A stretch of DNA of 38,935 bases from Ruminococcus sp. (GTDB lineage Bacteria > Bacillota > Clostridia > Oscillospirales > Ruminococcaceae), in the NCBI GenBank assembly GCA_024403935.1, contig JAKSQV010000012.1, positions 1-38,935 of the forward strand, given 5' to 3'. Shown in pieces: positions 3,336 to 20,098 of this stretch (positions are counted from its first letter, which is position 1; every line of letters starts with the position of its first letter). Position numbers and translations under genes: made by a program. The notes under the pieces are model-generated. The model did not search any database and had not been told where the DNA came from. It worked only from the letters and a program-made list of their open reading frames with translations.

Positions 3336-4991
<1,656 letters not shown>

Positions 4992-7752: not shown

Positions 7753-7781
7753 ATTATAGCATTGCAAAGTTCGCTTGTCAA
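7753..7781 (-). promoter_or_regulatory. Consensus promoter of the DUF6442-xre operon
   Basis: On the minus strand, TTGACA (7776-7781), exactly 17 bases, then TATAAT (7753-7758): both hexamers are perfect. Such a strong promoter would normally need a repressor, which fits the operator overlapping its -35. Confidence 0.92.
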
Positions 7782-7802
7782 TACCTGCCAAGCAAACTTT
7801 GC
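7764..7802. promoter_or_regulatory. Inverted-repeat operator, probable Xre binding site
   Basis: GCAAAGTTCGCTTG (7764-7777) and CAAGCAAACTTTGC (7789-7802) are inverted repeats with 13 of 14 positions matching and an 11-base spacer. They bracket the -35 hexamer of the operon's promoter, so a bound dimer or tetramer would exclude RNA polymerase. Related GCAAAG-like words occur on both sides (about 7732-7739 and 7811-7818). Confidence 0.75.
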
Positions 7803-7901
7803 AAATTCGGCACTTTGCACAAAGATACAGTTCACTATTCTGCACATCTGCATAACAACTGTGTACAATAACATTCAGCCTTTTCTATACGGTATTTTTT
7901 C

Positions 7902-7930
7902 TTGACAGTACTTTATAAATTTGTTATACT
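7902..7930 (+). promoter_or_regulatory. Promoter of the 12-kb glycan-uptake operon
   Basis: TTGACA (7902-7907), a 17-base spacer and TATACT (7925-7930). Transcription should begin near 7937, leaving a leader of about 130 bases. Confidence 0.8.
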
Positions 7931-7936
7931 AATTTA

Positions 7937-8070
7937 TAAGGATTTATGCAGTTCGGCAAGACTGCTTCATATATCGACAGGCTTTAGGCAGCCTGCCGCA
8001 CACGGAAACCGTGCTGTTCTGCGCCCTCTTTGCAGAACAAGCCACTTACACTCATGAAAGGCGGATAAAA
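7937..8070 (+). promoter_or_regulatory. Structured 5' leader of the glycan-uptake operon
   Basis: The untranslated leader contains two clear stem-loops: CACGG-AAA-CCGTG at 8001-8013, and TGTTCTGC (8015-8022) pairing with GCAGAACA (8032-8039). A further possible stem lies around GGCTTTAGGCAGCC upstream. Neither of the two is followed by a T run, so they are not simple terminators. They match no riboswitch class I recognise. They may affect mRNA stability or access to the ribosome site at 8057-8064. Confidence 0.4.
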
Positions 8071-11007
8071 TTGAATATTATCATGCTTTGCCGGAGAATC
8101 ACCTCCGGCGCATTGTCATGCTTTATCGCAGCCGGCAGCCTCTCAGGCATCCCTTCTGCCTCAGCGGCGGCTGCTCCCTCTGCCCTCAGCGATGACTACT
8201 TCCGTATCGAGCCCGTTGATACGGACACACCGTCATACAGCAGCTACTATGACGAATACAGCGGCGAAAAGCGTCCCGACAAGGAGATAGCTATTTGTGC
8301 CGCAGACTACCGTTCGGCAGAGGACGGTACATTTTCTGTCGGAAGCTTCGGCACAGATGAGGATGTCCGCAGCGGTGTCCTGATATGGGAAAGCTCCGAC
8401 GGGAAGCTCTCATACGACATTGATGTCAATGAAACAGGCATATACTGCCTCGGCATACGCTATTTTCCGATCGAGTCAAACAGCTCGCAGATAGAGCTGT
8501 CCATGCAGATCGACGGCAGAACTCCGTACGATACGGCAAGCCGTCTCACCCTCAACCGCGTGTGGACTGACGAATCGGAGATACATAAGGATTCACGCGG
8601 CAATCAGGTGCGTCCCGCGCAGATACAGAAGGGTATGTGGCAGGAGTGCGACTTTGGCGACATCGACGGACTTTTCGGCGAGCCGCTGTTCTTCTTCCTC
8701 GAAAAGGGCAGACATGAGATAAGCTTTACTTCCGAACGTGCTCAGCTTGCGATCGAAAGCCTGACCTTCCACAATCCCGACAAGCTCCCGACGTATGAGG
8801 AATACCGCAGCTCCGTGAACGCGGCAGGCTCGTCAGAGCCCGATATATTCCGCATCGAAGGCGAGAATGCGTCACTCAAGTCCGATCCGACGCTCTACCC
8901 GACATACGATAATACAAGCTATCTCGTATCACCGTCCGATCCGACCAAAGTCGTGTACAACACTCTCGGCTCGGGCAACTGGAAAAAAGCCCTCCAGTCC
9001 GTAACGTGGACTATTCCCAAAGAGGAGATAGACTCTGACGGATGGTACAGAATAGGCATAAAGTCGCGTCAGAACCAGATGCGCGGCTTCTACTCCAACA
9101 GGAGGATATACATTGACGGAAAAGTTCCGTGCAGCGAGCTTGATCAGGTAAAGTTCTTCTACGATACCGACTGGAGCGTAGTTACTCCAAAGGCGGAAAA
9201 CGGCGAAGATATATACGTCTATCTCACTGCCGGCACCGACCACACCATTACGATGGAATGCGTTCCCGGAGAAATAGGCAACTCCATGCGCAGGCTCGAT
9301 GATGCCATCACCGACCTCAACACCTACTACCGCAGGATTCTGATGATAACGGGACCTGCTCCCGACCAGTACACCGACTACTACGTACACGAAAAGATAC
9401 CCGGTCTCGTCAGCGAATTCAAGAGGCTCTCTCAGGAGCTGAAAGACATTCAGGGCGAAATAGAAAGTCTCTCAGAATCGGCAGGCTCGGAAGCCGCCTC
9501 CCTCGAAACAATAACGGTCATCCTTGACAAGTGTACCGAAAAGCCGCTCAGGATACCTGATTATCTTACGCAGATAAAGGACAGCATAGCTTCCGTATCC
9601 GCGTGGGAAAGAGACTACCGCGACCAGCCGCTTGAGGTCGATTATATCGAATTTGCGACCGAAGGCGAAAACTTCACGGGCAGCAAAGAAAAGCTCGGAA
9701 AGTCGATAGCGTTCAGCGTTAAGTCGTTTATCGGCTCATTCTTCGAGGATTATACCACCCTCTCCGATGTCACGGGAGAGGACGCCATAAATGTATGGGT
9801 ATCACTCGGGCGCGATCAGGCTCAGGTCGTAAAGGAAATGACCGAAAACGAATTCATGCAGGAGTACAATATCCCTATCTCTGTCAACCTTGTGGTCGGC
9901 GGAGTGGTAGAAGCCACGCTTGCAGGAAAAGGTCCTGATGTGGCACTCTTCCTCGGCGGAGAATTCCCCGTCAATCTCGCTGCGCGCGACCTGCTCGTGG
10001 ACATCTCCGACACCACACAGTTCTCCGATTTTGACACGGTAACCGAACGCTTTCAGGAAAACGCCATGACACCGTATCAGTACAACGGCGGCACATACGG
10101 TCTGCCGATAAGCCAGACCTTCCCGATGATGTTCTACCGCACCGATGTCCTCTCGGAGCTCGGCTTCACATCTCCGCCGGAGACGTGGACAGAGCTTATT
10201 GATATGCTCCCTGCGCTCCAGCGCAACTACATGAATGTGGGACTCATTCTCCCGCCGACAAATATCTCACCTGCTACCGAAGCAGGACACACCTTTGCAA
10301 TGCTTCTGCTCCAGAAGGGGCTGAACTACTATGACGAGGAACAGACGGCTTCTACATTCGATTCCGTTGAAGCTGTACAGTCCTTTGAGGAGTGGACGGA
10401 CTTCTACACCAAATACAGCTTCGTCCAGCAGTACGATGCATTCAGCCGCTTCAGAACAGGCGAATATCCCATTGTAATATCCAACTATACCTTCTTCAAC
10501 CAGCTTGCTGTCGCCTCTCCCGAAATAAAGGGGCTCTGGAGCTTCTGCCCTGTTCCGGGCACTCTCCGCGATGACGGCACGGTATCTCACGCTGCCAACT
10601 CAACCGGCGCAGGCGCGGTGATATTCAAGAAGGTCAAGAACAAGGAGAATGCGTGGAAGTACATCAAGTGGTTCACTGAAGCCGACACGCAGGTTCGCTA
10701 CGGCACACAGATAGAGGGGCTGCTCGGTACGCTCGGCAGATTCGATACCGCCAACACCGAAGCTCTCGCCCAGCTCTCATGGTCACGCGGCGAATACGAA
10801 AGGCTCGCTGCTCAGCAGGCAGAGCTTGTCGAGATACCCGTTATCCCGTCATCCTATGCCGTTACCAGAAACATCATGAACGCATTCAGAGAGACCGTCA
10901 ACGAGCTTGAGAATCCGCGTGACACACTGATATGGTACAACCGCGACATCAACGACGAGATAACAAGAAAACGCAGTAATCTCGGTCTTGATAAAGACAA
11001 AAAATAG
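8071..11007 (+). CDS. Giant extracellular solute-binding protein with carbohydrate-binding-like modules
   Basis: The start chosen is TTG 8071 (978 residues), six bases after AAAGGCGG; a GTG at 8011 lies inside a leader hairpin. A signal peptide spans about residues 1-33, ending near ASAAAA. Two beta-rich blocks follow (about 30-200 and 250-425). Each has an FRIE-type opening and a closing strand resembling CBM6/CBM35-like modules. A helical linker covers about 440-540. The C-terminal half (about 565-975) is a family-1 sugar-binding protein, with GKGPDVALFLGGEF, GGTYGLPISQTFPMMFYRTD and FRTGEYPIVISNY. Most such proteins have only about 430-550 residues. It probably captures an oligosaccharide for the permeases that follow. 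No lipobox is evident, so surface retention may depend on partners. Confidence 0.85.
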   Translation: MNIIMLCRRITSGALSCFIAAGSLSGIPSASAAAAPSALSDDYFRIEPVDTDTPSYSSYYDEYSGEKRPDKEIAICAADYRSAEDGTFSVGSFGTDEDVRSGVLIWESSDGKLSYDIDVNETGIYCLGIRYFPIESNSSQIELSMQIDGRTPYDTASRLTLNRVWTDESEIHKDSRGNQVRPAQIQKGMWQECDFGDIDGLFGEPLFFFLEKGRHEISFTSERAQLAIESLTFHNPDKLPTYEEYRSSVNAAGSSEPDIFRIEGENASLKSDPTLYPTYDNTSYLVSPSDPTKVVYNTLGSGNWKKALQSVTWTIPKEEIDSDGWYRIGIKSRQNQMRGFYSNRRIYIDGKVPCSELDQVKFFYDTDWSVVTPKAENGEDIYVYLTAGTDHTITMECVPGEIGNSMRRLDDAITDLNTYYRRILMITGPAPDQYTDYYVHEKIPGLVSEFKRLSQELKDIQGEIESLSESAGSEAASLETITVILDKCTEKPLRIPDYLTQIKDSIASVSAWERDYRDQPLEVDYIEFATEGENFTGSKEKLGKSIAFSVKSFIGSFFEDYTTLSDVTGEDAINVWVSLGRDQAQVVKEMTENEFMQEYNIPISVNLVVGGVVEATLAGKGPDVALFLGGEFPVNLAARDLLVDISDTTQFSDFDTVTERFQENAMTPYQYNGGTYGLPISQTFPMMFYRTDVLSELGFTSPPETWTELIDMLPALQRNYMNVGLILPPTNISPATEAGHTFAMLLLQKGLNYYDEEQTASTFDSVEAVQSFEEWTDFYTKYSFVQQYDAFSRFRTGEYPIVISNYTFFNQLAVASPEIKGLWSFCPVPGTLRDDGTVSHAANSTGAGAVIFKKVKNKENAWKYIKWFTEADTQVRYGTQIEGLLGTLGRFDTANTEALAQLSWSRGEYERLAAQQAELVEIPVIPSSYAVTRNIMNAFRETVNELENPRDTLIWYNRDINDEITRKRSNLGLDKDKK

Positions 11008-11023
11008 AAAGGAGGGACTCCTC

Positions 11024-11965
11024 TTGGCTCAGATAGCTGCCGAAGATATCGGCAAAAGGACAAAGCGTGAGGAACGCGCCATGATGTGGCGGTCATTCAA
11101 GATGAACAGATCGTGCTACCTCATGCTTGCGCCGTTTATGCTGTTTTTCATAGTATTTACAATAGTGCCTGTTGTGATGTCCCTCCCTATGGGATTCACC
11201 GATTTCAATATGGCACAGGCTCCGAAGTTTGTCGGACTCTCGAACTATACAACATTATTCCTTTCGGACAAGATATTCATCAAATCCATAAGGGTAACGA
11301 TAGTATTTGCACTGTTCACAGGTCCCGTAAGCTATATTCTTTGCTTCCTTCTGGCATGGCTCATAAATGAGCTCCATCCGAAGCTCAAAACGATATTCAC
11401 GCTCATATTCTACGCTCCGTCGCTTGCAAACGTCTACACGGCATGGACACTGATATTCAGCGGCGATATGAACGGCTATGCAAACTCCTTCCTCATCAAC
11501 CTCGGACTCATCAGCTCGCCCGTACAATGGCTGACAGACGGCAGATATATCCTCGGCGTGACGATAGTCGTACAGCTCTGGATCTCGCTCGGAGCAGGCT
11601 TCCTTGCTCTGCGTGCAGGCTTCCAGAACATCGACCGCTCGATGTACGAGGCAGGTGCCATCGAGGGCATCCGCACACGCTGGCAGGAGCTTATCTACAT
11701 CGTGATCCCGTCAATGGGACCTCAGCTCATGTTTGCGGCTGTAATGCAGATAGTAAGCTCTTTCACGGCAGGAACCGTCGCACAGAACCTTGTCGGCTTC
11801 CCGAGCACCGACTACAAAGCACACACGATCATGACTCATGCGTTCGACTACGGCTGGGTACGCTATGAAATGGGCTACGCATCGGCAATATGCATGGTGC
11901 TGTTCGTTGTGATGTACCTGCTGAACAAGCTTATCAGCAAGGTGCTCAGCAAATATATGGACTAA
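11024..11965 (+). CDS. Sugar ABC transporter permease (MalF/UgpA type), first pair
   Basis: A 313-residue inner-membrane permease with six predicted spans. The EAA loop that contacts the ATPase reads EAGAIEGIRTRWQELIYIVIP (about residues 218-238). The start is TTG 11024, eight bases after AAAGGAGG (11008-11015); a longer frame from 10988 overlaps the preceding gene. The spacing to the solute-binding protein gene is 16 bases and to the partner permease 12 bases. It should pair with the next gene to form one sugar channel. No ATPase is encoded nearby, so a shared MsmX-type ATPase from elsewhere is implied. Confidence 0.92.
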   Translation: MAQIAAEDIGKRTKREERAMMWRSFKMNRSCYLMLAPFMLFFIVFTIVPVVMSLPMGFTDFNMAQAPKFVGLSNYTTLFLSDKIFIKSIRVTIVFALFTGPVSYILCFLLAWLINELHPKLKTIFTLIFYAPSLANVYTAWTLIFSGDMNGYANSFLINLGLISSPVQWLTDGRYILGVTIVVQLWISLGAGFLALRAGFQNIDRSMYEAGAIEGIRTRWQELIYIVIPSMGPQLMFAAVMQIVSSFTAGTVAQNLVGFPSTDYKAHTIMTHAFDYGWVRYEMGYASAICMVLFVVMYLLNKLISKVLSKYMD

Positions 11966-11977
11966 GGAGGTGGAACA

Positions 11978-12856
11978 GTGGCTCAGGTCAATACCGTGAA
12001 GCTCAAAGCTTCAAACAAGCAGGCAGGCAGAAAGATAGGCGGAACTGTTGCTATCTTTGCCTTTCTGGCAATTCTCGGACTCTTTATGCTGTTCCCTATC
12101 TACCTTATCTGTATAATGTCCGTAAAGCCGGTAGAGGAGCTGTTCATCTTTCCGCCGAAGCTGTACGCGATACGTCCGACTCTCGACAATTTCAGCGATA
12201 TGTTCGAGGTGCTCAACAGCAACCGCGTACCGTTCTCAAGATATGTTTTCAACAGCGTTGCCGTGACCGTATCGGTAACGGTGCTTCAGTGCATATTCGC
12301 ATCAATGGCGGCATTCGTGCTCGCAAAGTGCAGATTCCCGGGAAGCAAGCTCATAAACAGCATTATTGTCGTTTCACTGCTCTACCAGTCAAACGTCATA
12401 TACATCATGCAGTACATCGTAATGGCGAAGCTCGGGCTTATCGACAATCCGCTCGCACTGATACTCCCGTCGATAGCCTCACCTATGGGACTTTTCCTGA
12501 TGAGGCAGTCGATAAGTCAGGTACCCGATGCCATGATAGAAGCGGCAAAGGTTGACGGAGCAGGACTGTTCCGCATCTGCTGGCAGATAGTCATGCCCAA
12601 TCAGAAGCCCGCTCTCATGACCATAATCATCTTTGCATTTCAGGCGGCATGGAGAATAGAAGCAGGCTCCGTAGTCTTTCAGGAGCAGTACAAGACTCTC
12701 CCGACCGTCGTCAATCAGGCAGCCTCGGCAGGTCTCGCCCGTGCAGGCGTAGCTGCCGCCGCCGCAGTATTCATGCTCATCCCGCCCATCGTGGTATTCA
12801 TGCTCGCACAGCGTCAGGTCATCGAGACAATGGCACATTCGGGCATCAAGGACTAA
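11978..12856 (+). CDS. Carbohydrate ABC transporter permease (MalG/UgpE type), first pair
   Basis: A 292-residue partner of the preceding permease. After a short basic N-terminus it has about six spans, the first at LAILGLFMLFPIYLICIM. The EAA loop is EAAKVDGAGLFRICWQIVMP, a clean match to the CUT1 family. The start is GTG 11978, with AAGGAGG at 11964-11970. It precedes the NHL-repeat gene by 13 bases. The QRQVIETMAHSGIKD C-terminus is the usual ending of MalG-type permeases. Confidence 0.93.
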   Translation: MAQVNTVKLKASNKQAGRKIGGTVAIFAFLAILGLFMLFPIYLICIMSVKPVEELFIFPPKLYAIRPTLDNFSDMFEVLNSNRVPFSRYVFNSVAVTVSVTVLQCIFASMAAFVLAKCRFPGSKLINSIIVVSLLYQSNVIYIMQYIVMAKLGLIDNPLALILPSIASPMGLFLMRQSISQVPDAMIEAAKVDGAGLFRICWQIVMPNQKPALMTIIIFAFQAAWRIEAGSVVFQEQYKTLPTVVNQAASAGLARAGVAAAAAVFMLIPPIVVFMLAQRQVIETMAHSGIKD

Positions 12857-12869
12857 GGAGGGCAGGCGT

Positions 12870-14534
12870 ATGAAAAAACTATCAGGCAGGCTTATCACCC
12901 TCGCCCTCTCTGCCGCTCTGCTCGGAGGCTGTGTTTCAGCCCTCACCGCAAACGCAGACGAGCCTTATGACGTTTACAACTACGACCGCTGGGGAGAAGC
13001 TGTCCCCTCACAGGCGGGCTATATCGCCGACCGCGCTGTTTCAGGCTATGACCTCGGTGTGGGCGCATTTGACTCGCCCTCAGACATCTTTTTCAGCCAT
13101 GACGGTACCTTTTACATTGTCGATTCAGGCAATGACCGCATTGTTGCTGTCAATTCCGACTTCTCCGAAGCAACGGAGGTTTTCAACAGCTTCACCATGC
13201 CTGACGGCTCGGAGACTAAGCTGAAAAATCCGCAGGGCATATTCATCTCGGCAGAAAACGACCTCATGTATATCGCTGACAACGAGAACTCACGCGTTCT
13301 CATCTGCGACAGGAACGGCAACGTTCAGAGCGAGATGACCAAGCCGACCTCCGAAATATTCGACCAGAAGCGCACCTTTCTGCCGAAGCGCGTCATTGCC
13401 GACAAGGCAGGAAATGTGTACGTTGTGCTCGACAACATCACCACAGGCGCGGTAATGTTCGCTCCTGACGGTGAATTCATCGGATTCTACGGTGCAAACC
13501 GCGTTCAGCCTACGGCGGAGATAATCGGCAGATATTTCACAAGCCTGTTCACCCCTGAGGAAAAGCGTGCGCGCCGTGCAAGAAACGTTCCTACCGGCAT
13601 CACGAGCTTTGACATTGACGGCGACTTCATCTTCACCTGTGCATCTTCCTCGACACAGACCACCGATACGGTCAAAAAGCTCAACGCCGCAGGCAACAAC
13701 ATATTTGCGAATATGGACCTCAAATTCGGTGATTATGCCCCCATGTACGATACCTCGCAGAACAAGCTCCTTGCTCCTGCGATATGCGATATTGACATCG
13801 CTGATGACGGCAATATCAACTGCCTCGACTTCACTACGGGACGCATTTTCCAGTACGATGAAGACTGCAACCTCATCTTTATTACCGGAACGCTTGCAAA
13901 GCAGGTCGGCGGTTTTGACCACGCCGCAGCGATCGAATCGAACGGCAGCAATCTCTACGTTGTGGACAGCCAGAAGGATACGGTGACCATATTCAGAGAA
14001 ACCGACTTCGGAAAAATAGTCCATAAGGCTACCGCCTACTATAACGCAGGCTACTATGAGGAGGCTCTCGGTCCGTGGCAGGAGGTACTCAAACGCGACG
14101 GCAACTACCTGCGTGCCAATGTGGGCGTTGCATCCGCTCTGCTGCGCAAAGGCGACTACAAGGGAGCAATGAAATATGCAAAGCTCGCCGGTTCAGGCAA
14201 TATTTACAACAAAGCATTTGAGGGCTACCGTACGGAGTTCCTCAGACAGCACTTCGGACTTGTATTTGCCATTGCGGCTGCAATAGCTGCTGTCCTGTGT
14301 GCGCTCGGCATCGTCCTGAAGAAGCGCAGAAAGCTTCGTGCGGCAGAGAAAAAGATTCCCGAAGATGCCGCAATAGCAAGGCTCGACCTCGATAACGGCG
14401 AAGCGGCAGAAGCGTTACAGGCTCTTGAAGCAGAGACAAAGGCTGATGAGGAAGCCGCACGTCTCAAAGCCGAGATAGCCGCAGCAAATAATGCTTCCGA
14501 CAATGAAAGAACGAAAGGAGGAACAGCAACATGA
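12870..14534 (+). CDS. NHL-repeat/TPR protein with N-terminal signal and C-terminal membrane anchor
   Basis: A 554-residue protein of unknown role. The first 21 residues form a signal ending LLGGC, a possible lipobox; cleavage at ANA-DE (about 29-30) is the alternative. Residues 65-385 hold about five NHL-like beta-propeller repeats, such as [20 protein letters not shown] and [23 protein letters not shown]-like helices follow (about 388-455, [18 protein letters not shown]). One membrane span is at about 463-484. A Lys/Arg-rich stop (KKRRK) and an Ala/Glu-rich, probably coiled cytoplasmic tail close the protein. The propeller should therefore lie outside and the tail inside. It may scaffold or sense the transporter. 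ATGA overlap joins it to the Yip1 gene. Confidence 0.82.
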
Positions 14535-15160
14535 TGGATCTTAGTCCTGCCGAGTGGGTAAAGCACGCTGTCACCCACCCTGCGGAAGGCTTTGAGGATA
14601 TGCGCTGGAAAAAGTCAGGCTCGCTGAAGATAGCTTTCCTGATAGTGTTCATGCTGTTCCTCTCCGAGATAGCATACGAAAGGCTGTACGGCTTCCAGTT
14701 TGTCGTACCCAATGACAAGGTATTCAACATCATCCCGTTCATCACAAAAACGATAGTCGTTTTTGCAGCATGGGTGATAGGCAACTGGTCGGTATGTACT
14801 CTCCTTGACGGAGAAGGCACAATGCGGAATATATGCATTTACAGTGCCTATTCGCTGATACCGTTCATCGCACAGCGGTTCATCAACGTGATACTATCGC
14901 ACATCCTTATCCGCGATGAAGCTGTTTTTATGCAGGCGATAGAGATCATAGGCGTCGGCTGGACAGCAATACTGCTGTTCTCGGCTATCAAATCGGTACA
15001 CCAGTACAGCTTCGGCGAGACAGTTTTCGCTATCGTCCTGACGATAGCGGCAATGCTGATAATGCTGATGCTGCTCGTGCTTTTCATGTCGCTGATACAG
15101 CAAGTGTACATCTTCATTTCAACAATTTACACGGAACTCTCATACAGGATAAGAGTCTGA
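14531..15160 (+). CDS. Yip1-family membrane protein
   Basis: A 209-residue protein with a short amphipathic N-terminus ([28 protein letters not shown]) and about five spans from residue 34 on. The [11 protein letters not shown] lead followed by a five-span bundle is characteristic of bacterial Yip1-like proteins. It starts at ATG 14531 inside the stop of the NHL gene (ATGA), so the two are tightly coupled. Eukaryotic Yip1 proteins act in membrane trafficking, but bacterial ones are uncharacterised. Its place between an NHL protein and a DUF5696 protein suggests an accessory membrane part of the same complex. Confidence 0.8.
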
Positions 15161-15179
15161 CGGAACGGCGGTGATACCT

Positions 15180-18011
15180 ATGGTAAACAAAATAAAACGT
15201 GTACTGCTGTGCCTGCTTGCCGTTTCAACGATGACCGTATCTGCCGACATCTACGCCGATAACGCTGACGAAGCCGATACGGCGGCTGAGACTGACAGCA
15301 GCGAAGAAGATACCGAAGACGGCTCATCCGCAGAAAAAGCGGCAAAGCTCAAAGAGACCGCGGAGAAGGTCCGTGCGGAATATGACGACATCACAGCATA
15401 TCTCAGGCTGCTCGGATCGGCTGACGGCATTGACATCTACGTCATGGACAAGGACACCGAGGAAACAATATGGGCTGAAAACGGCGGAAAACCTGAGAAG
15501 AAATCCGACTACACCGACGAGCAGAAGGAGCTTGCCGACAAAATAAGCAGCCTCAAAAAGCTCGGCGACCTTGTAGCTGTCGATCCCGTAAAGAAGGAAG
15601 CTCTTGCGAGCTTCAGCGACAGCAGCAAATGTGATGAGGGTAAGCTCTACATAAGCGATGCAAAACGCTATCTGCTCTGCGTGGACAGCGACCTCACCCG
15701 TGTGATACGGATACGCCGTGTTATTTCGACCATTGACGATCCGTCACTGTTCAGCTCCGTTGACGGCAAGGTGCTCGAACGTATGGACAGCGACTATAAA
15801 AAGGTGATCGCATCATTCAGAGAAAGCGGCACTGAGGACGGGAAAAAGGTATTCCGCAGCGATGACGGCTCCGCTTTTGCATGGCTCAGCCCTGACGGAA
15901 AACAGGTCATCGGCACATACAGGCAATGCGCTGAAAATGACAGCTTCATCATGCTCGTGGACGACCGTCTCGGCAACTTCGGTCTCAAAAACAAGTCCAC
16001 AGGATATATCTGGTGGTCATCTCCGCTTGAAGCCGCCCGTGACAAGGTGGCGACTCCCCTGCTGGTCAATGAGCTGCGCTCATCGAATACGCTCCGCTAC
16101 GGCATACCCTCAAAGCGTTCCAACAACAACGTTCTGCGCTCAGGCACAGACGACTGCAAGATAAGCGTCAGCGATATCAGGAACGGAGTTGAAGTCACAT
16201 ACAGCTATACAAAAGGCTTCAGCTTTCCTGTCGAATACACCCTTGAAGACGACTGCCTGAAGGCATCTCTCAAGGTCTCGGAGATAAAAGAACCCAAGGA
16301 TGAAACGATAGCCACAGAGCTCACGATAATGAACAGCTTCGGAGCCGCCTCCGACACCGAGGACGGCTACTTCGTGATACCTGACGGCTGCGGAGCACTT
16401 GTCCGCTTCAACAACAATAAAACAATGGAAACAAACGCCTATCAGCAGCGCGTATACGGTCCTGATGTGACCGTCGTGCCGACAAGCAGAGGGGCAGTTT
16501 CCGAGCAGATATACCTGCCTGTATACGGCATAGTCAAGGAGGATAACGCAATGCTCGTGGTCGCATCCAAGGGCGACTCGAATGCATATCTTTCGGCTCA
16601 GGTGTCAAAGCAGTCCAACAGCAGCTACAACCTCTGCAATTTCACATTCATACTCCGCGGCACGGATACGTTCTATATGTCGGGCAACAACAGCGACAAG
16701 CTGACCGTCTTTGAGACAGGCGACATCATGTCGGACGACATAGAGCTGTGCTACTACCCGATAGCCAAGGAAAATGCGGACTACACCGACATTGCCGACC
16801 GTTACAGACAATACCTCATCGAGGAAGAAGGCGTGGAGCCGAAATCATCGGATGCGGCAATGTATGTTGACCTCTACGGCGGTACTCTCAAGAAAAAGCC
16901 CGTGCTCGGCATACCTGTCACGATGAAGCAGTCCGTCACCAAATACGGAGAGGCTCTTGAAATACTCAGCGAGCTCAAGGACAAGGGAGTTGACAACATG
17001 GTCGTCTCCTACAACGGCTGGACAGATGACGGCATCAGGCGGAAAATAGACAATGAAGCCTCCCCCTCGGGAACTCTCGGCGGCAAGAGCGGCTTCAGAA
17101 AACTCACCGACTTCATTGACGACAACGGCTTTGAATTCTATCCCGCTTCAAGCAACAGAGACTTCTACTCGGGCAACGGCTACTACTCGTTCACGAGCAC
17201 CTGTGTAAGAGGTTCAGGCTCGTACTCCCGTATCGTCAGCTATGACCGCGCATATGGTATTCCTGACGGATTCAGGAAGAATATGTCGCTGCTCTCACCG
17301 AGCTGCTTCGGCGAGGTCTACGACGAGCTTGCGGACAACTGCTCAGAAGCAGGACTCAGCGGCGTATCCGTGGACAATGCGGCATCATCGCTCTATGGTG
17401 ACTACGGCAAAAAGAACATCTCACGCTTCAAGGCAATGACCATAGCCGAGGAGGCATTCGGCAAGCTGGAAGAAAAGCTCGGGAACGGCTTCATTGCCGA
17501 CGGTGCGAACGCCTACGCTTTGCCGTACATCAGCCGCATCACGAATGTACCGCTCTCATCAAGCAGATTCGACATCTTCAACGAGGATGTGCCGTTCTAT
17601 CAGATGGTGATGCACGGACTTATCCCCTGCTCCACAGCTCCGATAAACGGGGACGCCGATCCGTCCGCACTGCTGCTGATGGCTGCATCTACCGGAAGCC
17701 AGCTCAGCTATGACATGATATACAGCGAATCAAGCGTGCTCAAGGACACCGACTATGATAATTACTTCTATGCAGACTGCCGCTGCTGGACGGACACTGC
17801 TGCGGAGAAATACCGCCTTCTTGCTCCTATGCTCAACAGCATCGGCGACAGCACGATTACAGGCTGGGAGCTCGGAAACGGCGGTGATCTCATTACAACG
17901 ACATATTCAGACGGCACAGTCGTAAAGACAGACCTCAAAACAAAAACTGTCGAATACAACGGAAAGATGATCTCGCTTGCAGATGATGAGGAAGGAGGTA
18001 TCAGTGACTAA
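15180..18011 (+). CDS. Large secreted DUF5696-like protein, possible divergent glycoside hydrolase
   Basis: A 943-residue protein. The start is ATG 15180, six bases after GGCGGTG; GTG 15171 in frame is the alternative. A signal peptide covers about residues 1-28. An acidic, low-complexity stretch (about 28-55) and a helical/mixed region follow. A large beta-rich domain spans about 240-540. The last 370 residues look like a TIM-barrel hydrolase, with strand-end motifs NMVVSYNGWTDDG (about 605), LSGVSVDNAASS (about 727) and a closing TYSDGTVVKTDL (about 909). Size, layout and context match proteins grouped as DUF5696. The Asp in SVDN is a candidate catalytic residue. The enzyme reading is inference, as no standard hydrolase signature is complete. 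Confidence 0.7.
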   Translation: MVNKIKRVLLCLLAVSTMTVSADIYADNADEADTAAETDSSEEDTEDGSSAEKAAKLKETAEKVRAEYDDITAYLRLLGSADGIDIYVMDKDTEETIWAENGGKPEKKSDYTDEQKELADKISSLKKLGDLVAVDPVKKEALASFSDSSKCDEGKLYISDAKRYLLCVDSDLTRVIRIRRVISTIDDPSLFSSVDGKVLERMDSDYKKVIASFRESGTEDGKKVFRSDDGSAFAWLSPDGKQVIGTYRQCAENDSFIMLVDDRLGNFGLKNKSTGYIWWSSPLEAARDKVATPLLVNELRSSNTLRYGIPSKRSNNNVLRSGTDDCKISVSDIRNGVEVTYSYTKGFSFPVEYTLEDDCLKASLKVSEIKEPKDETIATELTIMNSFGAASDTEDGYFVIPDGCGALVRFNNNKTMETNAYQQRVYGPDVTVVPTSRGAVSEQIYLPVYGIVKEDNAMLVVASKGDSNAYLSAQVSKQSNSSYNLCNFTFILRGTDTFYMSGNNSDKLTVFETGDIMSDDIELCYYPIAKENADYTDIADRYRQYLIEEEGVEPKSSDAAMYVDLYGGTLKKKPVLGIPVTMKQSVTKYGEALEILSELKDKGVDNMVVSYNGWTDDGIRRKIDNEASPSGTLGGKSGFRKLTDFIDDNGFEFYPASSNRDFYSGNGYYSFTSTCVRGSGSYSRIVSYDRAYGIPDGFRKNMSLLSPSCFGEVYDELADNCSEAGLSGVSVDNAASSLYGDYGKKNISRFKAMTIAEEAFGKLEEKLGNGFIADGANAYALPYISRITNVPLSSSRFDIFNEDVPFYQMVMHGLIPCSTAPINGDADPSALLLMAASTGSQLSYDMIYSESSVLKDTDYDNYFYADCRCWTDTAAEKYRLLAPMLNSIGDSTITGWELGNGGDLITTTYSDGTVVKTDLKTKTVEYNGKMISLADDEEGGISD

Positions 18012-18982
18012 TGGCAGAAGAAGCTATCAAGGCAGAAATATCAGCTCCGTCAGCGGAGACTGACGCAGGCAAGCCCAAAAAGAAACGCCGCAGTCTCTCC
18101 TATGAGAAGCGCAAACAGCTCTACGGCTACGGCTTCATATCAATATGGATGATAGGCACATTGTTCTTCTTTCTCATACCGCTGATAAAATCCTTCTGGT
18201 ACTCTTTCAATGACGTTTCTATCGGAGAGGGCAGAATGATGACGGAATGGGTTGGTCTTGCAAAATACGATTTCGTGCTAAATGCCGATCCCAACTACAC
18301 GGCCTTCCTCAAGGACACTCTCATCGAAACAGCATGGAAAACTCCGCTCGTTCTGATATTCTCACTGTTCATCGCCGTCATACTCAATCAGGAATTCCAC
18401 GGCAGAACTCTTGCACGTGCCGTATTCTTCCTGCCTGTTATCATTGCAACAGGTCCTGTCTACAAGATAATAAGCGGCGATATGAACTCAACAGGCAATA
18501 CTGGTGCGGCACAGTTCTCGACCATGTTCTCCACCGACCTCGTCGGAGAGCTGCTGCAATTTCTCGGCATATACGGCATAAGCGACAAAATGAGTACGAT
18601 CATCTCTACCATCGCAGATAATATCTTCGGTATCGTCTGGGCGAGCGGCATACAGATACTTCTTTTCCTCGGCGCATTGCAGAATATCCCCCCGTCAGCC
18701 AAGGAAGCCGCTCAGATAGAGGGCGCGACCTCATGGGAATTCTTCTGGAAGATAACCCTCCCCTACGTCAGCCCGTTCATACTTGCAAATCTGATATTCA
18801 CTGTCATCGACTCATTCACAAGCCCAACCAATACAGTCATGGGACGCATCCTCTCAATGAAGGAGGAATGGAAATTCGGTGAGGCTTCGGCAATGGCGTG
18901 GATATACTTCATGATAGTCCTTGCGGCTATCGGACTGGTAACGTTCATAATAAACAAGTTCGTTTACTATGAAGTCGAATAA
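18011..18982 (+). CDS. Sugar ABC transporter permease (MalF type), second pair
   Basis: A 323-residue permease with an unusually charged N-terminal tail of about 38 residues (PKKKRRSLSYEKRKQ), then a first span at IWMIGTLFFFLIPLI. The EAA loop is EAAQIEGATSWEFFWKITLP. The start codon shares one base with the DUF5696 stop (TAATG) and GGAGG lies at about 17995-17999, so translation is coupled. It is divergent in sequence from the first MalF-type permease in the operon, so it is not a recent duplicate. It pairs with the next gene. Confidence 0.93.
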   Translation: MAEEAIKAEISAPSAETDAGKPKKKRRSLSYEKRKQLYGYGFISIWMIGTLFFFLIPLIKSFWYSFNDVSIGEGRMMTEWVGLAKYDFVLNADPNYTAFLKDTLIETAWKTPLVLIFSLFIAVILNQEFHGRTLARAVFFLPVIIATGPVYKIISGDMNSTGNTGAAQFSTMFSTDLVGELLQFLGIYGISDKMSTIISTIADNIFGIVWASGIQILLFLGALQNIPPSAKEAAQIEGATSWEFFWKITLPYVSPFILANLIFTVIDSFTSPTNTVMGRILSMKEEWKFGEASAMAWIYFMIVLAAIGLVTFIINKFVYYEVE

Positions 18983-18994
18983 GGGGGCGATGAT

Positions 18995-20026
18995 ATGACT
19001 GATACAACAGGTGCCGTTGTGAAAGACGAAAATGAGATCGGCGGCGGACTTTCTCCCCGACAGGCAAAGAAGCTTCGTATGCAGTCCATGACCGCAGAGG
19101 AGCGCGGATATGTGCGCCGGAAGGCTGTGCTTGACGCTGTATGGCCGATATTCCGCTTTGTCATACTTTTTGGACTTGGCTTTGTAATACTCTATCCGCT
19201 CATCTATATGGTAAGCTGTACCTTCCGCGAAAGAGCAGACATGACCGATCCCACAGTAATGTGGATACCGCGTCATTTCACGCTGGATGTCCTCAAGGAA
19301 ACACTTACTGCTATGGACTTCTGGAACACGCTCAGAACGACACTGATACTCAATATCGGATGCTCGTTCGTTCAGGTCGTTTCGTGTGCGCTTACAGGCT
19401 ATGGCTTTGCGCGGTTCAAATTCAGGTTCAAGGGACTGCTGTTCGGAATAGTCATCATGATGATACTTGTACCGACACAGGTAATAGCACTTCCGCTGTA
19501 TACGCAGTTCAGATACTTCGGCATACGCGGACTTTTCACGATAAACCTCATCGACACGCTGTGGACGATGTACCTCCCCGCGATAACCGCCAACGGCATA
19601 CGCTCGGGACTGATGATACTGATATTCCGCCAGTTCTTCCGCGGACTTCCGAAGGAGCTTGAGGATGCCGCCTGCATCGACGGCTGCGGACCGCTGAAAA
19701 CGTTCATAAAGGTAATGATACCGAACGCAGGCTCGGCATTTCTGACGGTATTTCTTTTCTCGGTCGTATGGTACTGGAACGACTACTATGTCAGCTCGAC
19801 ATTCTATGTAAATACGAACACTCTTGCGCGTATGCTCACAAATCTTGATACCGAGCTGAAGATAAGACTGTTCCAGTCCGCAACGGTGGAGATCTCACCG
19901 CGTGAACAGATAGTATGGAAGGAAGCAGGCTGCCTGCTCTCGATAACGCCCATACTTCTGCTGTACGTCGGTCTTCAGAAGCACTTCACCGAGGGCATTG
20001 CACGTTCGGGAATCACAGGAATATAA
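18995..20026 (+). CDS. Carbohydrate ABC transporter permease (MalG type), second pair
   Basis: A 343-residue permease, longer than its first-pair counterpart because of a hydrophilic N-terminus of about 48 residues (SPRQAKKLRMQSMTAEERGY). About six spans follow. The EAA loop departs from consensus, DAACIDGCGPLKTFIKVMIP, with D for E at its start. The start is ATG 18995 after a GGGGCGATGAT stretch, 12 bases from the previous stop. It is the last gene of the operon; a terminator begins 34 bases later. Whether it shares the large binding protein or uses one encoded elsewhere is unknown. Confidence 0.92.
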   Translation: MTDTTGAVVKDENEIGGGLSPRQAKKLRMQSMTAEERGYVRRKAVLDAVWPIFRFVILFGLGFVILYPLIYMVSCTFRERADMTDPTVMWIPRHFTLDVLKETLTAMDFWNTLRTTLILNIGCSFVQVVSCALTGYGFARFKFRFKGLLFGIVIMMILVPTQVIALPLYTQFRYFGIRGLFTINLIDTLWTMYLPAITANGIRSGLMILIFRQFFRGLPKELEDAACIDGCGPLKTFIKVMIPNAGSAFLTVFLFSVVWYWNDYYVSSTFYVNTNTLARMLTNLDTELKIRLFQSATVEISPREQIVWKEAGCLLSITPILLLYVGLQKHFTEGIARSGITGI

Positions 20027-20060
20027 CAAATATACCATTTCCTGCACATTGACAACAAAA

Positions 20061-20098
20061 AGCCTCTCTGAAGGGTGATCCTTCGGAGAGGCTTCTGT
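20061..20098 (+). terminator. Bidirectional terminator after the glycan-uptake operon
   Basis: AGCCTCTC-TGAAGG and CCTTCG-GAGAGGCT form a long stem (20061-20092) around GTGAT, with TCTGTTTT after it. AAAAA before it gives a T run for the convergent minus-strand gene. Confidence 0.85.

Follow-up and report, generated by a model that had tools for sequence, protein, structure and literature searches.

An eight-gene Ruminococcus cassette of a large sugar-binding protein, two permease pairs and an NHL-Yip1-DUF5696 trio: a conserved unit with a likely role in carbohydrate import

What unites a very large sugar-binding protein (SBP), two pairs of permeases, an NHL beta-propeller protein, a Yip1-family membrane protein and a DUF5696 protein in a single operon? 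This question is raised by positions 7902-20094 of a 38,935-nt stretch of Ruminococcus sp. DNA (hereafter the window; GenBank assembly GCA_024403935.1, contig JAKSQV010000012.1), whose host draft genome comprises 1.65 Mb and is 74% complete. The region consists of a promoter-like site, eight tightly packed genes on the same strand and a terminator-like hairpin, and the eight-gene unit is real and highly conserved. Judged from its sequences, the cassette likely has a role in carbohydrate import, and a probability of roughly 60% is assigned here to the reading that it encodes two importers of the CUT1 type that share an ATPase and are combined with a membrane-anchored surface platform, itself a plausible component.

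The conservation of the cassette is evident from 299 genomes drawn evenly across the phylum: DUF5696 was detected above cut-off in 26 of them, from 12 families, with weak sub-cut-off matches in seven more. The Yip1 profile of the window type matched 27 of the 299, namely the same 26 genomes and, weakly, genome G241 (7e-7). The N-terminal half of the large SBP was found in 33 genomes: the 26 with DUF5696, among which G141 has it truncated by the end of a contig, two whose contigs are tiny, and five, all from one family, in which the match is weaker. A large SBP without the NHL-Yip1-DUF5696 trio was seen in G142 and G192, on contigs of only 3.8 and 4.3 kb, and these cases are hence uninformative. 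Searched for alone, DUF5696 is matched in every one of the 24 genomes of the genus, the host genome among them, and, outside the genus, in 8 of 16 genomes of the same order; in one of these eight, G038, the match is a divergent GH101-like protein and the cassette is absent.

Gene order was compared across 84 DUF5696 loci, or 83 after removal of the near-identical L074; 63 of them were fetched by DUF5696 and 20 by Yip1, the latter coming from multi-copy genomes and not being independent of Yip1. Co-occurrence elsewhere, the check on which the original prediction had staked its case, is borne out by the 63 loci retrieved with DUF5696 alone: 60 have Yip1 as the gene immediately upstream, 59 have a pair of permeases immediately downstream, and 46 show all eight parts in full order, which is beyond chance. 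Among the 20 Yip1-fetched loci, the corresponding numbers are 19, 17 and 8. The full order is kept in 20 of the 21 loci nearest to the window, and the 29 loci without it mostly belong to multi-copy genomes or are situated at contig ends. Many loci of multi-copy genomes show the arrangement NHL-Yip1-DUF5696-F2-G2 with an ordinary SBP in place of the large one, where the labels F1/F2 and G1/G2 of the permeases are, at distant loci, assigned by best score and possibly confused. The same order was also found on two plasmids, of Butyrivibrio fibrisolvens D1 and Paenibacillus cellulosilyticus KACC 14175. The nearest named loci stem from Ruminococcus of gut metagenomes, many of them ruminant ones; the relatives also include R. 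callidus ATCC 27760.

In the window, the tight operon between promoter and terminator that had been predicted matches the open reading frames (ORFs), their junctions and both ends. From 5' to 3', the seven junctions consist of an overlap of 20 nt, gaps of 12 and 13 nt, an overlap of 4 nt, a gap of 10 nt, an overlap of 1 nt and a gap of 12 nt. The promoter-like site (7902-7930, forward strand; TTGACA-17-TATACT with extended TG) is defined by an 11/12 consensus match only, and the terminator-like hairpin (20060-20094, forward strand; 16 pairs and a T-rich tail) by a hairpin scan; window-wide, 18 promoter-like sites compare with 12.7 in shuffled sequences and 14 terminator-like sites with 10.7. 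The leader (7937-8085) folds slightly better than its shuffles (z -1.62; 9 of 200 shuffles as good), and an Rfam scan of the window yielded no match at gathering score.

The first gene (8011-11007, forward strand like all eight) encodes the large SBP, with a signal peptide, beta-sandwich regions, a helical linker and a CUT1 SBP domain. Its ORF of 998 aa is counted from GTG 8011, while the true start is probably TTG 8071, immediately upstream of which lies AAAGGCGG, or ATG 8083; from the likely start, the protein comprises about 975 aa. SBP_bac_1 and SBP_bac_8 of Pfam match its C-terminal 400 aa (E 5.3e-23 and 2e-23), and the SBP fold expected of a CUT1 binding protein is found by these profiles and in a structure model, which is scarcely tested by structural comparison below residue 565. 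The signal peptide lacks a lipobox, which is present in most of the ordinary SBPs found in the same genome. The N-terminal beta-sandwich regions are CBM35-like in relatives. Shorter stand-alone ORFs akin to the N-terminal half of the large SBP occur at the NHL-Yip1 loci L109, L124, L135 and L141; the first three have no large SBP, and in L141 the ORF stands beside a complete one.

Two permeases of the MalF/UgpA side, F1 (10988-11965) and F2 (18011-18982), and two of the MalG/UgpE side, G1 (11978-12856) and G2 (18995-20026), form the two pairs. An EAA loop, a feature expected of CUT1 permeases, is found in all four (of EAA type in G2). BPD_transp_1 of Pfam matches G1, G2 and, below cut-off, F2; F1 shows GlcT/PotB/UgpA-like NCBIfam matches far below the cut-offs, and all NCBIfam sugar-permease matches of the four lie under the equivalog cut-offs. 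The eight-gene operon contains no ATPase gene. A single gene of the genome, on another contig (G000:C76:10605-11735), scores above the UgpC cut-off, and this MalK/UgpC/MsmK-type ATPase would power the permeases of the cassette. In Paenibacillus cellulosilyticus, a UgpC gene immediately precedes the cassette. Genetic evidence from Anaerocellum bescii assigns the energization of oligosaccharide importers to a single MsmK (PMC12838199). The cassette resembles the CUT1 importers with shared MsmK of that organism, such as Athe_0595-0598, in its SBP, its heterodimeric permease pair and an ATPase encoded elsewhere, but differs, as far as the excerpts of that study describe them, in its two permease pairs, its very large SBP without a lipobox and its three extra surface or membrane proteins (PMC12838199).

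In the favored model, the large secreted SBP, with its beta-sandwich and sugar-binding domains, would feed the permease pair F1/G1, while F2/G2 would work with the NHL-Yip1-DUF5696 trio and with an ordinary SBP where one exists; in the genome of the window, F2/G2 may share the large SBP or use a distant one. NHL and Yip1 would form one membrane unit with the propeller and the TPR part outside. Together with the GH129-fold DUF5696 protein, this unit would hold oligosaccharides, or the lipobox-less SBP itself, beside the permeases, and ATP hydrolysis would be supplied by one shared MsmK/UgpC-type ATPase encoded elsewhere. Capture and import, two of the three steps of the predicted capture-process-import machine, are probable in light of the CUT1 fold, the EAA loops and the carbohydrate enzymes and LacI/AraC regulators near the cassettes of other lineages. 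For the third step, processing, no support was obtained.

The DUF5696 protein (15171-18011; 946 aa) has a signal peptide and matches PF18952 of Pfam with E 6.7e-161. Of the three non-permease parts said to have no known biochemical role, this one can at least be assigned a fold: the structure model, tested by structural comparison mainly over residues 249-938, shows a GH129-like fold with a barrel, and homology to GH129 was detected as well. PF11308 does not match the protein, but neither does it match any of the 299 genomes or any of 14 controls, leaving the search itself unproven. Acidic residues occupy the columns expected to hold the nucleophile (736) and the acid/base (777), placed by counting and not by superposition, in 20 and 18 family members, respectively, out of 53, and both columns together in 5, compared with a chance product of 6.8; by these counted columns, the catalytic acids of GH129 (D435 of NagBb; D486/E517 of DagB) are apparently not retained throughout the family. 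Because the expected columns are not conserved family-wide, processing by DUF5696 is doubtful and a role as glycan holder is likelier than one as enzyme. The apparent lack of a family-wide catalytic pair distinguishes the family from the GH129/DagB enzymes as characterized in excerpts of PMC5698469 (NagBb, 5wzn; ZgGH129, 5opq).

The best-surviving alternative, though itself doubtful, is that DUF5696 represents a new family related to GH129 with exo-glycosidase activity and trims surface oligosaccharides before import, using a positional dyad in some members or another acidic pair, such as D744 and D830. The fold with its barrel is in line with such an enzyme, as are several well-conserved acids: D744 (acidic in 45 of 53), D830 (aspartate in 39 of 53), D405 (50 of 53) and column 840 (glutamate in 42 of 53, serine in the window copy). 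Furthermore, the window copy carries D735, adjoining column 736, and D777, and variation already exists among GH129 relatives, since DagB retains one of the two catalytic residues of NagBb (PMC5698469). Against this proposal stand the column counts given above, the middle of the barrel, whose alignment to GH129 chains is noise without a recognizable match, and the conservation of DUF5696, the lowest among the parts of the cassette.

Two further features of the family were observed. Residues ~60-240 form an extra N-terminal domain that is present in many of the nearest relatives and missing in, for example, L070, L071 and L073. At the examined loci, DUF5696 sits in the cassette, which likewise sets it apart from GH129/DagB-type enzymes, with one clear exception: the divergent relative at L095:1652-3685 (reverse strand), which also matches GH101 and DUF6259, lacks the cassette and may be a catalytically active member of the larger group.

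The genomic surroundings bear on the substrate. The ten flanking proteins scanned in the window comprise a cpn60 protein, ABC-2 membrane and ATPase proteins, a DUF6442 protein, a cytidylate-kinase-like protein, phosphoenolpyruvate carboxykinase (PEPCK), an Rce1-like protein, a PALP enzyme, a release factor and one protein without a match; none is a carbohydrate-active enzyme or a carbohydrate regulator. In this respect, the window is unlike the polysaccharide utilization loci of Gram-positive bacteria, where glycoside hydrolases and regulators cluster with ABC genes; loci of other lineages do resemble these, as they combine such enzymes with regulators. The cpn60/TCP-1 chaperonin gene (3363-4991) lies upstream of the ABC-2 transporter pair. 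On the reverse strand at 7753-7804, upstream of the DUF6442 gene, a perfect 12/12 sigma-70-type promoter overlaps a 19-nt inverted repeat (89% complementary) that looks like an operator.

For the other lineages, 236 flanking ORFs of at least 250 aa were scanned, leaving out the window and its near relatives (L060-L074, L081, L117-L121). The resulting family counts are lower bounds drawn from the 25 top Pfam families of each scan, and carbohydrate enzymes overall have no random-locus control: at least five each of GH26, GH28 and GH43, three each of GH95 and alginate lyase, and two each of GH27, GH5 and the GH51-type C-terminal domain. At least eight LacI regulators as well as AraC regulators accompany them, and housekeeping genes are present, too. 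Since the GH95 loci L076 and L079 are titled Ruminococcus sp., "other lineages" does not always mean other genera.

GH26 was the best candidate for a clue to one common substrate. Of 20 GH26 matches with E <1e-30 in cassette genomes, four are located 2-6 kb downstream of DUF5696 (G105, G190, G123 and G267, the last two from one genus), compared with ~0.14 expected for 20-kb windows. The GH26 protein of L107 carries CBM35 and that of L111 CBM27, CBM6 and CBM35, which suggests a beta-mannan link for copies of the L107/L111 type. One flank cluster, which recurs in several lineages, is found downstream on the same strand at L111, L107, L103 and the rabbit-gut loci L078 and L080, with GH26 confirmed in L107 and L111. 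A common substrate based on GH26 was nevertheless rejected because G217, G242 and G315, of the same genus as G190, possess the cassette without an adjoining GH26, and other copies have other enzymes. The beta-1,2-mannoside cluster of Thermoanaerobacter, which combines two permeases and dedicated ATP-binding proteins with GH5 and GH130, was likewise rejected as a counterpart; the excerpts of its description do not mention "NHL" (PMC4264767). The idea of a single complex glycan as substrate is not supported: neighbors vary between copies, and the scanned flanks of the window hold no carbohydrate enzyme.

It is unlikely, but worth weighing, that the cassette serves the recycling or assembly of the cell's own envelope polysaccharide and not the use of food glycans. 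Such a role would explain the genus-wide presence of DUF5696 and the absence of neighboring carbohydrate enzymes in the window; the housekeeping neighbors, such as cpn60 and PEPCK, and the ribosomal-protein-like genes recognized by eye 5-12 kb downstream in several relatives fit it as well. It is harder to reconcile with the multi-copy genomes, five of which have at least eight Yip1 matches each (8 to 10 among the matches listed), with copies beside differing polysaccharide-degrading enzymes and LacI/AraC regulators, and with the plasmid copy of Butyrivibrio fibrisolvens that adjoins GH43.

The NHL-TPR protein (12870-14534) and the Yip1 protein (14531-15160) would be parts of the platform. The former scores 21.6 bits for NHL, above the cut-off of 20, matches SGL and TPR below their cut-offs, and possesses a single transmembrane helix (~aa 464-482) followed by a basic C-terminal tail. 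The latter reaches 50.2 bits against a cut-off of 28.6 (PF04893; E 3.5e-13) and has five hydrophobic segments. By profile, both belong with the bacterial Yip1 proteins and NHL propellers, but here they differ in standing side by side or being joined into one protein, and in accompanying sugar permeases. NHL and Yip1 are encoded as a single polypeptide in 17 of the 63 DUF5696-fetched and 17 of the 20 Yip1-fetched loci, and in none of the 21 loci nearest to the window; the single annotated YIP1 gene of the P. cellulosilyticus copy is long enough for such a fusion. The predicted "one complex" stands as a conserved unit, given the gene order and co-inheritance, and as a physical association it is suggested by the NHL-Yip1 fusion only. 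PADLOC returned no defense-system match in the four non-permease proteins. That the trio acts outside the transport path as a sensor of glycan occupancy, with the propeller as external sensing domain, is improbable: among natural NHL chains, the sensor domain of the kinase PknD matches best (E 8.7e-22), the single helix with its basic tail would suit a sensor and a two-component system exists at the B. fibrisolvens locus, but designed propellers outscore PknD, so that the match informs on the fold only, and Pfam and NCBIfam scans of the trio revealed no kinase, helix-turn-helix or other signaling domain.

Several observations weigh against the model of two importers with a surface platform. 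Yip1 is not directly upstream of DUF5696 in 3 of the 63 loci (L077 and L085, at contig ends, and L095 with its divergent GH101-like protein), and L127, one of the 20 Yip1-fetched loci, is rearranged. The scanned flanks of the window are devoid of carbohydrate enzymes, and the presence of DUF5696 in every genome of the genus is as compatible with housekeeping as with a dietary glycan. The large SBP of the window itself has no CBM match in the profile scan, and its lipobox contrast is no general rule, as only 6 of 32 ordinary SBPs at other loci carry a lipobox. A lipobox-like LGGC lies near the N-terminus of the window's NHL protein, as in 7 of 80 NHL proteins. Finally, with D735 and D777, the window's own copy of DUF5696 is possibly active.

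Expression of the cassette may already be on record. In R. albus 7 grown on cellulose compared with cellobiose, Rumal_1426 (Sec), 1427 (TM) and 1428 (TM) were upregulated 4.37-, 4.74- and 4.30-fold; the three are called "hypothetical", and 1427-1429 are termed a putative ABC transporter operon (PMC4300822). Their predicted types fit DUF5696, Yip1 and NHL in reverse, and they may be these genes, though an NHL protein would perhaps have been annotated by that name; the transcriptome study may thus report expression of the cassette without, in its excerpts, naming it. A search of the open literature, with subscription papers and preprints outside its scope, found no publication naming DUF5696 and no apparent description of an NHL/Yip1/SBP cassette.

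The delivery of polysaccharide fragments to importers is less understood in Gram-positive gut and soil bacteria than the SusCD route of Bacteroidota, whose capture system would be the functional counterpart of the platform. Tentatively, the cassette could represent a glycan-uptake machine of a previously undescribed kind, in which a surface platform made up of the propeller, Yip1 and a non-catalytic GH129-fold protein would hold both oligosaccharides and an unanchored, CBM-bearing SBP and would couple two ABC permeases powered by a single shared ATPase, in a SusCD-like function. The GH129 fold without a family-wide dyad makes the role of DUF5696 directly testable. Near-strict co-inheritance over 12 families and the presence of DUF5696 in all examined genomes of the genus suggest that the cassette is standard equipment, which bears placeholder names only.
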